Source: a virus
Virus record (IMG/VR): IMGVR_UViG_3300006919_000452
Coordinates: 1 to 23,800 of that record
Strand: one strand, 5' to 3'
DNA length: 23,800 nucleotides
Below the pieces are notes generated by a model. The model was not told the DNA's origin and did no database searches. It saw nothing but the letters and a program-made list of their open reading frames with translations. How positions within the stretch are numbered: position 1 is the first letter of the stretch; each line of letters begins with the position of its first letter. The translations under genes were made by a program, and so were the position numbers. This document shows, piece after piece, positions 1,487 through 6,755 of this stretch.

Positions 1487-1810
1487 TTAGTCGATAATAT
1501 AGTCCTCGTCACAACAGTTTTCGCTGGCAAGAATATTATATTCCACTGCTAACGCTCTTGCTTGATTGAGGTGTGATGGTGCAGTGGGCAACACATATAG
1601 TGCTCTCTCGTCGTTTTCGCCCACAATAGGCCACTTATAACTGGGTTCGGTTAAAATTTGTGTTGCCATCAGTGACACTATGGTTTCCAATTTTGGATCT
1701 TCGGAATAGAATTCTATACAATTGTCAGTGTCGTCTTCGTAATACGAGAACACACAAAATTTACTCGATTCCGGATTTGCAAATTCGGCCCACGGATTAG
1801 TTTTTGTCAT
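1487..1810 (-). CDS. Small acidic protein of unknown function
   Basis: This 107-aa protein is not recognised. It has 20 Asp/Glu against 6 Lys/Arg, so it is strongly negatively charged, with acidic clusters near residues 25-38 and at the C-terminus. There is no signal peptide or membrane segment. The ATG at 1810 follows an AAGGG Shine-Dalgarno and a very good sigma70-type promoter (1845-1873). It sits directly upstream of the DNA methyltransferase and probably shares its transcript. A small acidic protein beside a DNA methyltransferase could be an anti-restriction DNA mimic, but no family motif supports this and it remains a guess. Confidence 0.75.
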   Translation of the reverse strand: MTKTNPWAEFANPESSKFCVFSYYEDDTDNCIEFYSEDPKLETIVSLMATQILTEPSYKWPIVGENDERALYVLPTAPSHLNQARALAVEYNILASENCCDEDYIID

Positions 1811-1844
1811 AATTTTTACCCTTTTATATCGTTATTGTCTATAT

Positions 1845-1873
1845 AATATAGCATAGTTGTATTTAGCAGTCAA
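1845..1873 (-). promoter_or_regulatory. Sigma70-type promoter for the 107-aa gene and methyltransferase
   Basis: On the minus strand the -35 TTGACT (1873-1868) is followed by a 17-base spacer and the -10 TATATT (1850-1845). Transcription would start near 1838, about 28 bases before the ATG at 1810. The -35 lies in the TTTAGCGGTTGACT repeat box, so a regulator bound there would block it. Confidence 0.7.
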
Positions 1874-1881
1874 CCGCTAAA
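1866..1881 (-). repeat. Repeat box (TTAGCGGGTTGACT-like), copy 3
   Basis: Reads TTTAGCGGTTGACTGC on the minus strand. It closely matches the copies at 1911-1930 (minus), 1975-1992 (plus) and, more loosely, 2270-2284 (minus). It contains the -35 of the 107-aa gene promoter. Confidence 0.55.
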
Positions 1882-1910
1882 TTCCGTTTTTTTACTAAAA
1901 AACCTTTTAA

Positions 1911-1930
1911 CGTAGTCAACCCGCTAACCC
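1911..1930 (-). repeat. Repeat box (TTAGCGGGTTGACT), copy 2
   Basis: The minus strand carries GGGTTAGCGGGTTGACTACG. It is the most complete copy and forms one arm of the long inverted repeat with copy 4 (1972-1990). Its TTGACT has no good -10 at 16-18 bases, so it may be an operator half rather than a promoter. Confidence 0.5.
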
Positions 1931-2004
1931 GGTGCCGATCGCGAAGTCTTGAAAAAACCACTGTTGATCTAGGGTCTAACGGGTTGACTATGCGTGGTTT
2001 TTTT
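1913..2004 (-). other. Interleaved inverted repeats, possible RNA pseudoknot or switch
   Basis: Two inverted repeats are interleaved. Stem A pairs 1994-2003 with 1952-1961 (AAAAAACCAC with GTGGTTTTTT on the minus strand). Stem B pairs 1980-1990 with 1913-1923 in 11 perfect base pairs, and extends to 1930/1972 with one bulge and one pair (1924/1979) that is G-U only on the minus strand. One arm of B lies in the loop of A and the other lies outside it, which is the topology of an H-type pseudoknot or of two mutually exclusive hairpins. The wobble favours a minus-strand RNA. No convincing promoter was found for such an RNA: a TTGAAA with an 18-base spacer to CATAGT is only a weak candidate. Stem B may instead be a two-fold DNA binding site. 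Confidence 0.45.
1972..1992 (+). repeat. Repeat box, copy 4, on the opposite strand
   Basis: TCTAACGGGTTGACTATGC reads on the plus strand, opposite to the other copies, and pairs with copy 2. No plus-strand gene follows and no -10 is seen, which favours a binding site or RNA arm over a promoter. Confidence 0.5.
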
Positions 2005-2041
2005 CACTGTTTTCAAACTTTTTAGATTCAGAGTGGATCCA

Positions 2042-2091
2042 CCCAAAGAAAAACCCTCTAGCAGCAAAAGGGAATAAGTTGCTAGAGGGTT
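2042..2091 (-). terminator. Intrinsic terminator
   Basis: The perfect 12-bp stem AACCCTCTAGCA/TGCTAGAGGGTT (2052-2063 with 2080-2091) extends by a G-U and a C-G pair. On the minus strand it runs straight into TTTTTCTTT (2053-2045). On the plus strand the following bases are not U-rich, so it acts mainly on minus-strand transcription. It would end both the structural operon and the putative small RNA. Confidence 0.85.
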
Positions 2092-2243
2092 CCGGTTTTA
2101 TACTTGGAGTATATATTTTTATTAGCAAGAAGCGTTAGTAGGATATTACACATGGCACTGTGTAAAGAGAAATCCATGGACGCAAATCCGGGATTTAGAG
2201 TGGCTGCTTCTTGCAAATATATTTAGTCCGACTCCCGATATAT
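2043..2243 (-). ncRNA. Putative phage small RNA with own promoter and terminator
   Basis: The interval begins at the predicted start site of a near-consensus promoter (2249-2277) and ends at the intrinsic terminator. Its body folds on paper into a three-way junction. The closing stem is GCAAGAAGC with GCTTCTTGC (2125-2133/2206-2214, 9 bp). One hairpin has a TTACACA/TGTGTAA stem and a 6-base loop (2146-2165). Another has AAATCC/GGATTT arms (2170-2196). An A/U-rich extension pairs 2120-2123 with 2216-2219. No known family (6S, tmRNA, tRNA) was recognised. A 31-codon reading frame lies inside but has no ribosome binding site. Promoter, fold and terminator together make an independent RNA plausible; the exact ends are inferred. 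Confidence 0.55.
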
Positions 2244-2248
2244 CACTT

Positions 2249-2277
2249 ATTTTAACTGAAACAGTGTGTGCTGTCAA
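2249..2277 (-). promoter_or_regulatory. Near-consensus sigma70 promoter after the structural operon
   Basis: TTGACA (2277-2272) is a consensus -35. After exactly 17 bases comes TAAAAT (2254-2249). The -35 starts four bases beyond the stop codon of the last fibre gene, so its output is the intergenic RNA, ending at the terminator 2052-2091 unless there is read-through. Confidence 0.7.
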
Positions 2278-2280
2278 CCT

Positions 2281-2706
2281 TTAAGTTGCTGAAATATTAC
2301 CACCCAGTGCAACAATTTTCCAATTGTCCACACTATACACTGCAATGCAAGCCGTGCCTGCATCACCGTTGCTGGTATACACCACGTCACCACTAACTGG
2401 TGTTGCAATATTGCTCACTTGTGCAACTGTTTGTGTGTTCAAACTGATAATGTTGGCCACTGTGACTCTGCCACTATCGGGCTGTAAATTTAGATCTTGT
2501 CCACTTGTGGTTGTCAAGTTTGGTGATATTTGTCCGCCAGGCACCTGTCCGCTGCTGTCTAGACTGGCAATGCCACTGGCTAGACCTCTGCTGTTGATAA
2601 TATCGTTTACTGCTACAATGCTGTCATCCAGTTCACTTCTTGCACTGCTGATGCTTGCAGCCGAATTTCCCACGTATGTGTTTGCTACCGTTGTTGGCCA
2701 AGCCAT
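2281..2706 (-). CDS. Small tail fibre-type protein with M-A-W-P-T-T N-terminus
   Basis: The 141-aa protein begins MAWPTT, as does the gene at 20528-21232, followed by a short helical stretch ending AVNDII near residue 37. The middle contains GIASLDSSGQVPGGQI, a linker common in phage fibres. The C-terminal ~60 residues (VSGDVVYTSNGDAGTACIAV, then DNWKIVALG) look like a small beta-domain that often closes fibre proteins. The ATG at 2706 has an AGGAGAA Shine-Dalgarno. It is the last gene of the structural operon. Role: probably part of the distal tail or host-contact apparatus, by style and position; no catalytic motif is seen. Confidence 0.75.
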   Translation of the reverse strand: MAWPTTVANTYVGNSAASISSARSELDDSIVAVNDIINSRGLASGIASLDSSGQVPGGQISPNLTTTSGQDLNLQPDSGRVTVANIISLNTQTVAQVSNIATPVSGDVVYTSNGDAGTACIAVYSVDNWKIVALGGNISAT

Positions 2707-4153: not shown

Positions 4154-6294
4154 TACAGTTCCTCGAATATGATGTTATTGGGTATAAACCCTGTGAAGTC
4201 CACTGTGAATGCATCACTGGTGGTTTTCAACTGCCTCTGTTTGCCAACAAATTGCAATTTGCAATTCAGTGGTCTACTTGGGTTCAGTGCTTGCAATTCA
4301 ATGTAGCCGTCTCGTGCTGCTGTGTCTTGATTGCCAATTGCAACCTGGAAGTAAGCATTTTCTCTTGGAAAGAATTGCAACAATTGTGTAAAATCAACAT
4401 TTGGTTCGTCAGTGGCAGTAAAGAACAGTCTGACATCCACTTGGCTGTGTCCATACACACTGGGTGATACAGTGGCACTGAGTATTTCTGGCACAGGCAA
4501 AAACTCTGGATCAGCCAGTATGATGTCACCATTGACAATGCCAATCAACAGTCCACTCTCCATTGCTGCTTCAATTTCTTCTTGTGTGTATCCTGGCAAT
4601 TGTGGGTTGTTGTATACAGGATTCAAATCTGGTGGTGCTACCCAATCATAGCCCAGTGGTGCATCGCTTTTGTTGCCAATGTGATGAACCACGCCATCTT
4701 TGTCAATGTATATTGGATAATTTCCAATACTGCCCAGTGTTGGTGTTCTGCGACGATATGGTATTACGTTGCCACCATATATCAAATCATTGTGTTCTTC
4801 AGCAACAATTGAGAAAGTGTAATCACCGTTAAATTGAATGCTTTTAACGCGGAATTCACCGTTGATTCCCAATCCTGAATAAACCAATGTAAAGATATCG
4901 TTGACCTGTAATTGATGCAAACTGGCATCGCCAATGAAAGTCACAATCTTGTTCCTGTATCGACTTTTAGCAATTGCTACTTGTGCGTATTTCAACGCAA
5001 CACTGTCTTGAGTGACATGTTCAAGTGTAAACTTCATTTCATTGAGTCTATTATCGTCTTCGGCAAGATACTGTGCTGCAAGAGCACTGTCCGGTTCTGG
5101 ATAGGTAATTTCAACTGCTTCGTTGGTTAACTGTGTGTCTTGGCGACCACCCATGTAAGTGACATTTACTCTGTTGTATTTGCCTTTTACATTGTCGCTT
5201 TCCAAATTCAGTGTGCCAATAATGCTGTCTTCGCCCACAGTCATAACTGGTGTGCTTGTGGTTCCGTATATTGAATCATCTTGTCTGTTGTCTTCCACTC
5301 TGACAGCAAACCTGCCGCTTTGATAAGGCAGCGCACTTCGCATGTTGAACAACATGGTGCGTGTGTTATCAAACAGTGTTCTGTCAGTGAATATAACAGC
5401 ATTGCATTCGTGGAACTGATCTGGGTTTGCAATGGTTTGACCATCTTGCAATTTGCCCCAGCGAATGTTTTCGTCTCTAAAACTCTTGAAGTTGATTTGA
5501 TCATTGCTGAGCCCCTTTCCATATAAAGGGTTACGCAAATAATCTAACAAACAGTTAATGGGATTGTTGCTAAAAGCCACTGTTTCGTCTGCATATGCCA
5601 CACTTCTTGCAACAGTGTCATCAAAATTGGCAGCATTGGCAATTTTCTTGCCTTTGCACACCACTGTGATAGTTGGGATGCTGCTCCACGGTGTTTCATC
5701 CTGATCTTCAGCACTTTCAACTTTGACCCAAGTCAATCTAAACGCAATATAGGCCAGGCCTCTTAGTCGATGCTGATTGCTCCAACCGCCAACACCAATT
5801 GTGAGTGGTGGTGAGTTTTGTGTGCTTGTTCCGTGATAGGTTTCAAATGTGACCACACCGCGATATTTGCCTTGGTTGGCTTCATAGCGTTGACCTTGTG
5901 CCGAAGTGCCACTCCAGGCCAATATATCATCACAGTATATTTCGGTGTAGCCTTCAATTTCGCCTTCTGCAATAGCAAGCACAATATGCAAGTATTTGTT
6001 GTTTTCACCTTCGGTGCTCACAAACACTCTGCTGCCGCCCACGCGACGAGTTCCGTATATCACAGGAATATTTAGATTGGTGCCCTGTTTGTTAACCAGC
6101 ACACCTTGGTTTTGATTTGTTGCTTGATCAAATCCTGAATCCGGAACATCAAACCCTGGATTGATAATGCTGTTGATAAGATCAGCACTGCCATAACCAA
6201 TGCCTGCACCAATAAGCGCACCAATTGGACCAGCAACCATAAAACCAACAACAGCACCAACTACTGTGGTGATTGCTTCAATTGCATTGCTCAT
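4153..6294 (-). CDS. Tail tip / central fibre protein, J-like
   Basis: 713 aa from the ATG at 6294, which overlaps the stop of the acetyltransferase gene in an ATGA. A longer frame to 6351 exists, but its extra 19 residues are encoded inside that gene. Residues 8-34 are hydrophobic and Gly-rich (VVGAVVGFMVAGPIGALIGA). Next come LNIPVIYGTRRVGG (73-87) and YLHIVLAIAEGEIEGYTEIY (101-120), the hallmark of the N-terminal hub of phage lambda J-type tail-tip proteins. The middle (DRTLFDNTRTML, DSIIGTLNLESDNVKGKYNR) fits the later hub domains. The C-terminal ~150 residues are beta-rich. It closes the tail tube and probably carries or forms the central fibre. It is shorter than lambda J (over 1,100 aa), so the distal fibre part is probably supplied by the small fibre genes downstream. 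Confidence 0.85.
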   Translation of the reverse strand: MSNAIEAITTVVGAVVGFMVAGPIGALIGAGIGYGSADLINSIINPGFDVPDSGFDQATNQNQGVLVNKQGTNLNIPVIYGTRRVGGSRVFVSTEGENNKYLHIVLAIAEGEIEGYTEIYCDDILAWSGTSAQGQRYEANQGKYRGVVTFETYHGTSTQNSPPLTIGVGGWSNQHRLRGLAYIAFRLTWVKVESAEDQDETPWSSIPTITVVCKGKKIANAANFDDTVARSVAYADETVAFSNNPINCLLDYLRNPLYGKGLSNDQINFKSFRDENIRWGKLQDGQTIANPDQFHECNAVIFTDRTLFDNTRTMLFNMRSALPYQSGRFAVRVEDNRQDDSIYGTTSTPVMTVGEDSIIGTLNLESDNVKGKYNRVNVTYMGGRQDTQLTNEAVEITYPEPDSALAAQYLAEDDNRLNEMKFTLEHVTQDSVALKYAQVAIAKSRYRNKIVTFIGDASLHQLQVNDIFTLVYSGLGINGEFRVKSIQFNGDYTFSIVAEEHNDLIYGGNVIPYRRRTPTLGSIGNYPIYIDKDGVVHHIGNKSDAPLGYDWVAPPDLNPVYNNPQLPGYTQEEIEAAMESGLLIGIVNGDIILADPEFLPVPEILSATVSPSVYGHSQVDVRLFFTATDEPNVDFTQLLQFFPRENAYFQVAIGNQDTAARDGYIELQALNPSRPLNCKLQFVGKQRQLKTTSDAFTVDFTGFIPNNIIFEEL

Positions 6295-6755
6295 ACCAAT
6301 ACCTGCCTTAGCATCACACCAGGATCTTGATAGCCTTGGTTTTCCAACCAACGCTGTGTAACTGGTGGTCTAAAACCAATATCACCAGCGCATATTTCTT
6401 TGGCATTCATTGCCTCTGCCCAATTTTTTAGATTGAGCAGCAAGTCTTCAGCAAATCCTTTGTCTCTGTGTTCGGGTAACACATAGATAAATTCACAGTT
6501 GACTCTGATATCTGGACACCAAGTATAAGGTGCTGCATAAGCAAATGCTCCGCCAACTGTTTCACTGTTATATTCAACTGCCAGCACACGATGTGACGCA
6601 AGGATCATTCCTCTGCGTAGGCTTTCTAGTGTGGTGTCACTGTCGAATTGATGTGTGCTGCTGTATGGAGATTCAGCAAAATACTTTTTTGCAAGATCAG
6701 TTAAATCTTTCAAGTGATAACTTTGTGCTTCTATAATCACGATGCTCTGCCCCAT
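6291..6755 (-). CDS. GNAT-family N-acetyltransferase in the tail module
   Basis: 154 aa. The acetyl-CoA-binding motif A is visible as VLPEHRDKGFAEDLL (92-106), with R97-x-x-G100-x-A102 in the pyrophosphate loop. EFIYVLP forms the preceding strand and RWLENQGYQ (135-143) the usual C-terminal signature. The protein would transfer an acetyl group from acetyl-CoA to an amine; the substrate is unknown. It overlaps the preceding hub gene by 19 bases and has no strong Shine-Dalgarno, suggesting coupled translation. Its place between the hub protein and the tail tip means that it is expressed late with the virion. Acetyltransferase-fold proteins are known among structural genes of other phages, including T7 gp13. 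It may therefore modify a virion or host protein, or be an assembly factor. Confidence 0.85.
   Translation of the reverse strand: MGQSIVIIEAQSYHLKDLTDLAKKYFAESPYSSTHQFDSDTTLESLRRGMILASHRVLAVEYNSETVGGAFAYAAPYTWCPDIRVNCEFIYVLPEHRDKGFAEDLLLNLKNWAEAMNAKEICAGDIGFRPPVTQRWLENQGYQDPGVMLRQVLV

Follow-up and report, generated by a model that had tools for sequence, protein, structure and literature searches.

A candidate structured noncoding RNA at the late-operon 3′ end of a phage genome fragment

Bacterial 3′-UTR-derived small RNAs (sRNAs) lie directly after the last stop codon and share the terminator of the operon. In phage lambda, 6S RNA is the pR′-tR′ leader, which combines a constitutive-type promoter, an RNA of ~195 nt, an intrinsic terminator and same-strand downstream genes. 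The pRNA of phage phi29 is a three-way junction closed by a long stem and made from its own promoter, and its complementary left and right loops serve ring assembly. To our knowledge, the relatives of the abundant Pelagibacter siphophages have so far yielded few noncoding RNAs. Phage-encoded sRNAs include lambda PreS and OOP, ipeX, and CfrI of cyanophage S-PM2 (review PMC12197685). Of these, ipeX is processed out of a longer phage transcript (PMC12197685), and CfrI is ~225 nt long and of intergenic origin (PMC2984593, PMC12197685). Ornate large RNAs of the GOLLD and ROOL types, structured and noncoding, are present in phages as well (PMC12286853).

Here we describe a predicted RNA in the window, a 23.8-kb fragment (23,800 nt) of the IMG/VR virus record IMGVR_UViG_3300006919_000452, an uncultivated phage of aquatic origin, with its genes on the minus strand. 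Like the phage sRNAs listed above, it would be small, noncoding and from a phage genome, and it shares with CfrI its intergenic position and similar size. It has no sequence or Rfam relation to any of them. CfrI runs antisense to psbA and to a gene for a homing endonuclease; the window RNA is antisense to no predicted gene. GOLLD and ROOL are much larger, and the window RNA has no Rfam match. It resembles 3′-UTR-derived sRNAs in following the last stop codon directly, in using the operon terminator and in having a predicted promoter of its own. Promoter type, ~195-nt length, terminator and same-strand downstream genes are as in lambda 6S RNA, but the window RNA comes after the late operon, not before it, and the downstream gene has its own promoter. 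In kind it resembles a phage sRNA, and it is probably a real phage RNA that had not been described before.

The intergenic locus and its promoter

The order of the TerL, portal, capsid, tail tube and tail J genes is colinear with that of Phage DSL-LC06 and of Pelagibacter phages HTVC026P, 111P, 112P and 202P. The gap at 1811-2280 is the sole ORF-free stretch of at least 120 nt within the whole window, and it holds a promoter, a fold and a terminator, in that order. On one side lies a late gene encoding 141 aa. On the other side a new unit begins, with a 107-aa ORF followed by a DNA methylase gene. The features of the locus, in the direction of transcription, are:

2281..2706, minus strand: 141-aa last gene of the late (structural) set; minor tail protein by a weak PHROG match, 61% identical homologue in IMGVR_UViG_3300047557_002762
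2249..2277, minus strand: consensus promoter TTGACA-17-TAAAAT (TTGACA 2277-2272, 17-nt spacer, TAAAAT 2254-2249), predicted start ~2243
2125..2214, minus strand: three-way-junction RNA domain of the minimum-energy fold, closed by P1 (GCAAGAAGC/GCUUCUUGC); z -5.0, pair probabilities 1.00
2214-2206/2133-2125, minus strand: P1 closing stem, minimum-energy fold
2170..2196, minus strand: P2 hairpin, 6 bp, 1x2 internal loop (C / AU), 4 bp, loop UUGC, minimum-energy fold
2146..2165, minus strand: P3 hairpin, 7 bp (arms 2165-2159/2152-2146), loop GUGCCA, minimum-energy fold
2045..2091, minus strand: intrinsic terminator common to the RNA and the late operon, from fold and pattern scan
1812..2041, minus strand: following regulatory region with a 15-bp inverted repeat, GGTTGAC sites and the 107-aa gene's own promoter, TTGACT-17-TATATT (1873-1845)
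1487..1810, minus strand: 107-aa ORF that opens the next transcription unit; no match in Pfam or PHROG

The promoter scores 11/12 and is the top promoter-like match in the window. Simple shuffles yield ~0.6 matches as good per 23.8-kb window, which is near chance, so the match is informative only because of its position, upstream of the fold and 3 bases past the stop codon at 2281. A preliminary description of this DNA had given the same -35 box, spacer and -10 box, and had placed them 4 bases after the stop codon.

That description had also recognised neither a known RNA family nor a clear coding frame. The former was borne out: Rfam gave no family at the gathering score in the window, and the weak matches under a permissive threshold were at chance level. 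The domain region of the relative IMGVR_UViG_3300047557_002762 also had no Rfam match. The latter needs amending, as a 44-codon frame with a TTG start crosses the fold at 2216-2082 (31 codons counted from its ATG), but no similar ORF occurs in the corresponding region of that relative. ARAGORN found no tRNA or tmRNA in the window. The opposite strand carries no credible antisense gene, just short frames of ~27-42 codons. A nucleotide search of phages and plasmids returned nothing above chance, and the exact P1-arm pattern had 17 matches in IMG/VR, about equal to a rough chance estimate. None of 30 phage genes was a convincing antisense target (best p ~0.04 in 30 tests). We noted that the P2 apical region CCGGAUUUGC (~2191-2182) could pair without mismatch, over 10 nt, with codons 11-14 of the neighbouring 107-aa gene (1780-1771), a match within chance numbers for the whole window.

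The predicted fold and the closest relative found

The three-way junction and its three named stems, as proposed in the preliminary description, are all present in the minimum-energy fold. P1-P3 have pair probabilities of 0.71-1.00, both for a start at 2243 and with upstream late mRNA included. The 202-nt transcript has a folding energy of -60.6 kcal/mol (z -5.9), and the 105-nt domain without the terminator retains a z of -5.0; in both cases 0/200 shuffles were as stable. P2 is composed of an outer helix (2196-2191/2175-2170) and an inner helix of 4 bp (2189-2186/2181-2178). The arms of the terminator (2091-2080 / 2063-2052) are followed by TTTTTCTTT. It is a strong intrinsic terminator, as had been claimed, with 12-13 pairs by count instead of 14; the automatic scan lists the inner 6 pairs only.

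Protein-guided scans of IMG/VR yielded one usable close relative, and two GTDB scans yielded none. The relative, IMGVR_UViG_3300047557_002762 (30,064 bp; hereafter L184), was recovered with a tail J protein profile (65% identity in J). It is the closest complete relative found, colinear with the window at ~60% protein identity. A single gene holds both of its ends, which suggests that it is probably a circular genome opened inside that gene. In L184 the 141-aa homologue is followed by two small genes and then by an intergenic stretch holding a similar domain, in the order closing stem, second closing helix, extra hairpin, P2, P3, terminator and promoter of the next gene:

L184:2333-2479: closed domain, closing stem 2333-2344/2468-2479
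L184:2396-2423: P2, same architecture as in the window, loop CGCUU
L184:2433-2453: P3, loop GUGCC (GUGCCA in the window)
L184:2503-2524: terminator
L184:2542: promoter of the next gene

MAFFT placed the two RNAs out of register, and pairing was compared by explicit coordinates instead. P2 has a common build in both genomes (6 bp, an internal loop with a single C 5′ and two bases 3′, 4 bp and a terminal loop of 4-5). Between the window and L184, 7 of the 10 P2 pairs and 5 of the 7 P3 pairs have changed on both sides. Together, both sides differ at 12 of 17 pairs, one side at two and neither at three; none is broken and all are standard. The wobble pairs compared are G-U on the transcribed strand and would be A-C on the other. 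The preliminary description had held that compensatory changes in related phages would support the fold, and for P2 and P3 they were found, in one relative. This covariation speaks for structural constraint on an RNA and makes a coding explanation less likely. A fold that is kept while nearly all of its base pairs change points to a function.

The covariation rests on two sequences, and the single homologue L184 was picked by inspection. Adjacent P2-P3 hairpins of the shared build occurred in 1/10,000 folded shuffles of either sequence. A strict descriptor, run over 4.0 Mb of strand sequence, matched 95 rows with duplicates counted (~2e-5 per position), and among these only the window and L184 have GUGCC in the P3 loop. 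About 0.005 descriptor matches are expected in the L184 interval, and the five-letter loop match cuts this several hundredfold further. The chance probability of the structural match is ~1e-5 before allowing for post hoc choice, and the true significance is weaker because the descriptor was written after seeing the pair. Primary-sequence similarity is marginal: under one scoring 7/2000 shuffles did equally well, and under another it lacked significance. The L184 domain was not recovered by a covariance model based on the window alone; we attribute this to low information and to the extra hairpin between P1 and P2-P3 in L184, although doubt stays. Overall, we judge it likely that the two domains are homologous.

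On the sense strand of L184, 1427-2542 has no promoter-like site of 9/12 or better, so the domain there would be expected to form the 3′ end of that genome's late transcript. Judged from the two genomes, the conserved part appears to be the fold plus the terminator that closes the late operon, with the promoter specific to the window. We regard the structured element as real, most probably a noncoding RNA, and a candidate for a new RNA family. Its descriptor, a P2 with a 1x2 internal loop and a P3 with GUGCC as its loop, upstream of the late terminator, can be used to look for further members.

The window RNA is like phi29 pRNA in its three-way junction, long closing stem, predicted promoter of its own and origin in a phage genome. 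Membership in that class finds no support: by inspection the P2 and P3 loops are not complementary (UUGC and GUGCCA in the window, CGCUU and GUGCC in L184), and there is no phi29-type packaging ATPase, the window terminase being a standard TerL.

Proposed role and competing explanations

We favor, at a probability of about 0.5, a phage-encoded, structured, noncoding small RNA of ~195 nt that comes from the late-operon 3′ end and acts in trans. The late transcript would run into the fold and stop at its terminator, while the window phage would additionally make this 3′ end as a free RNA from its own promoter. This is the simplest reading that accounts for every part. The free RNA may act on phage or host mRNA, or via protein binding, its putative contact sites being the junction strands and the P3 loop, where GUGCC(A) is invariant; a trans function is suggested by the dedicated promoter and the unpaired conserved loop. 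The preliminary description saw an independent transcription unit, or alternatively a stabilised 3′ end of the late transcript. The window has a promoter match and a terminator, but outside the window genome an independent unit is unsupported, and the lack of a promoter-like site in L184 fits the alternative. The two may both be true, as in bacterial 3′-UTR-derived sRNAs.

The main rival, which we regard as possible but clearly less probable, is a purely cis-acting 3′ end of the late mRNA, in which fold and terminator block exonucleases and end the transcript and the promoter is incidental or serves otherwise. No other terminator lies between the late genes and the fold, the fold is unaltered when upstream late mRNA is added, and the L184 domain follows late genes without a recognisable promoter. 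However, a terminator hairpin is usually enough to protect a 3′ end, and several branches together with a conserved loop sequence hint at a further role. It would also leave unexplained why an 11/12 promoter lies, exactly spaced, right past the stop codon. We think it unlikely that the RNA is instead a leader or attenuator of the downstream 107-aa ORF and DNA methylase gene, with regulated read-through of the terminator, for which lambda pR′-tR′ (6S RNA) and the HK022 put-type antiterminator RNA are the models. The order of promoter, structured RNA of ~195 nt, strong terminator and same-strand genes, with two adjacent hairpins, would suit such a leader. Against it, both the 107-aa gene (1873-1845) and the next gene of L184 (L184:2542) have promoters of their own, the upstream promoter is missing in L184, and the predicted fold and terminator coexist with no evident antiterminator pairing.

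Translation of the 44-codon frame from TTG 2216 (or of 31 codons from the ATG), driven by the promoter, is very improbable. The frame is open to 2082, GGAG lies ~15 nt upstream of the TTG, and in another relative (L188, 55% identity) the 141-aa homologue is followed by a promoter at the same place and the 110-aa protein gene that it drives, not by the window RNA. But the start sites would be hidden in P1/P2, the spacing is poor, the stop lies inside a terminator arm, and L184 has no counterpart frame, as base pairs but not codons match there. We give similarly little weight to a DNA-level element, such as a replication origin or operator cluster, whose inverted repeats fold as RNA by accident. 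The adjoining 1812-2041 does contain inverted repeats and repeated GGTTGAC sites, and the L184 site is also at a late/early boundary. Yet the P2/P3 wobbles are of the G-U type only in the transcribed sense, and the promoter-terminator spacing fits a transcript.

Neighbouring elements and other phages

GGTTGAC sites cluster within 1845-1985 and at the RNA promoter (2279, 1921 and 1875 on the minus strand, 1982 on the plus strand), with two others in the window. The longer form GGTTGAC[A/T]GC is confined, in the window, to the two -35 boxes of the RNA promoter and the 107-aa gene promoter, and an inverted repeat, TTTAGCGGTTGACTGCTAAA, spans the -35 box of the latter. The cluster at both promoters looks like a shared operator. 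At 1900-2010 the 15-bp inverted repeat (TAGTCAACCCGTTAG and its partner) shares bases with another potential hairpin, GAAAAAACCAC/GTGGTTTTTTC. Only one of them can form at a time, and they may make up a switch, a terminator or a cruciform site.

In DSL-LC06 (L019, OR003941.1), in the region that corresponds to the window locus, we identified a 755-nt stretch at 573-1327 with no ORF >48 codons and a fold z of -6.2, which ends with a terminator (about 1270-1292) and a perfect TTGACA-17-TATAAT. It has no Rfam match and the P2-P3 motif is absent. Located where late and early genes of that phage meet, the stretch is a candidate for a large, structured noncoding RNA. More speculatively, and in our opinion rather doubtfully, a new RNA family could mark the late/early boundary in a siphophage lineage allied to DSL-LC06 and the HTVC026P-like Pelagibacter phages. 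The signature of such a family would be a three-way junction upstream of the late terminator in which one loop, GUGCC(A), is invariant, the 0.7-kb stretch of DSL-LC06 being an enlarged or analogous form.

Several otherwise different phages (L196, L197, L199, L200 and L202, ~6230-6380) share a conserved motif, CTGGCGnnG..AAAGCC...GGGTGA...TAGCTGA, which had no Rfam match in L197 and L199. The motif follows a tail gene and precedes the next structural one, and is a possible 5′-UTR RNA element.
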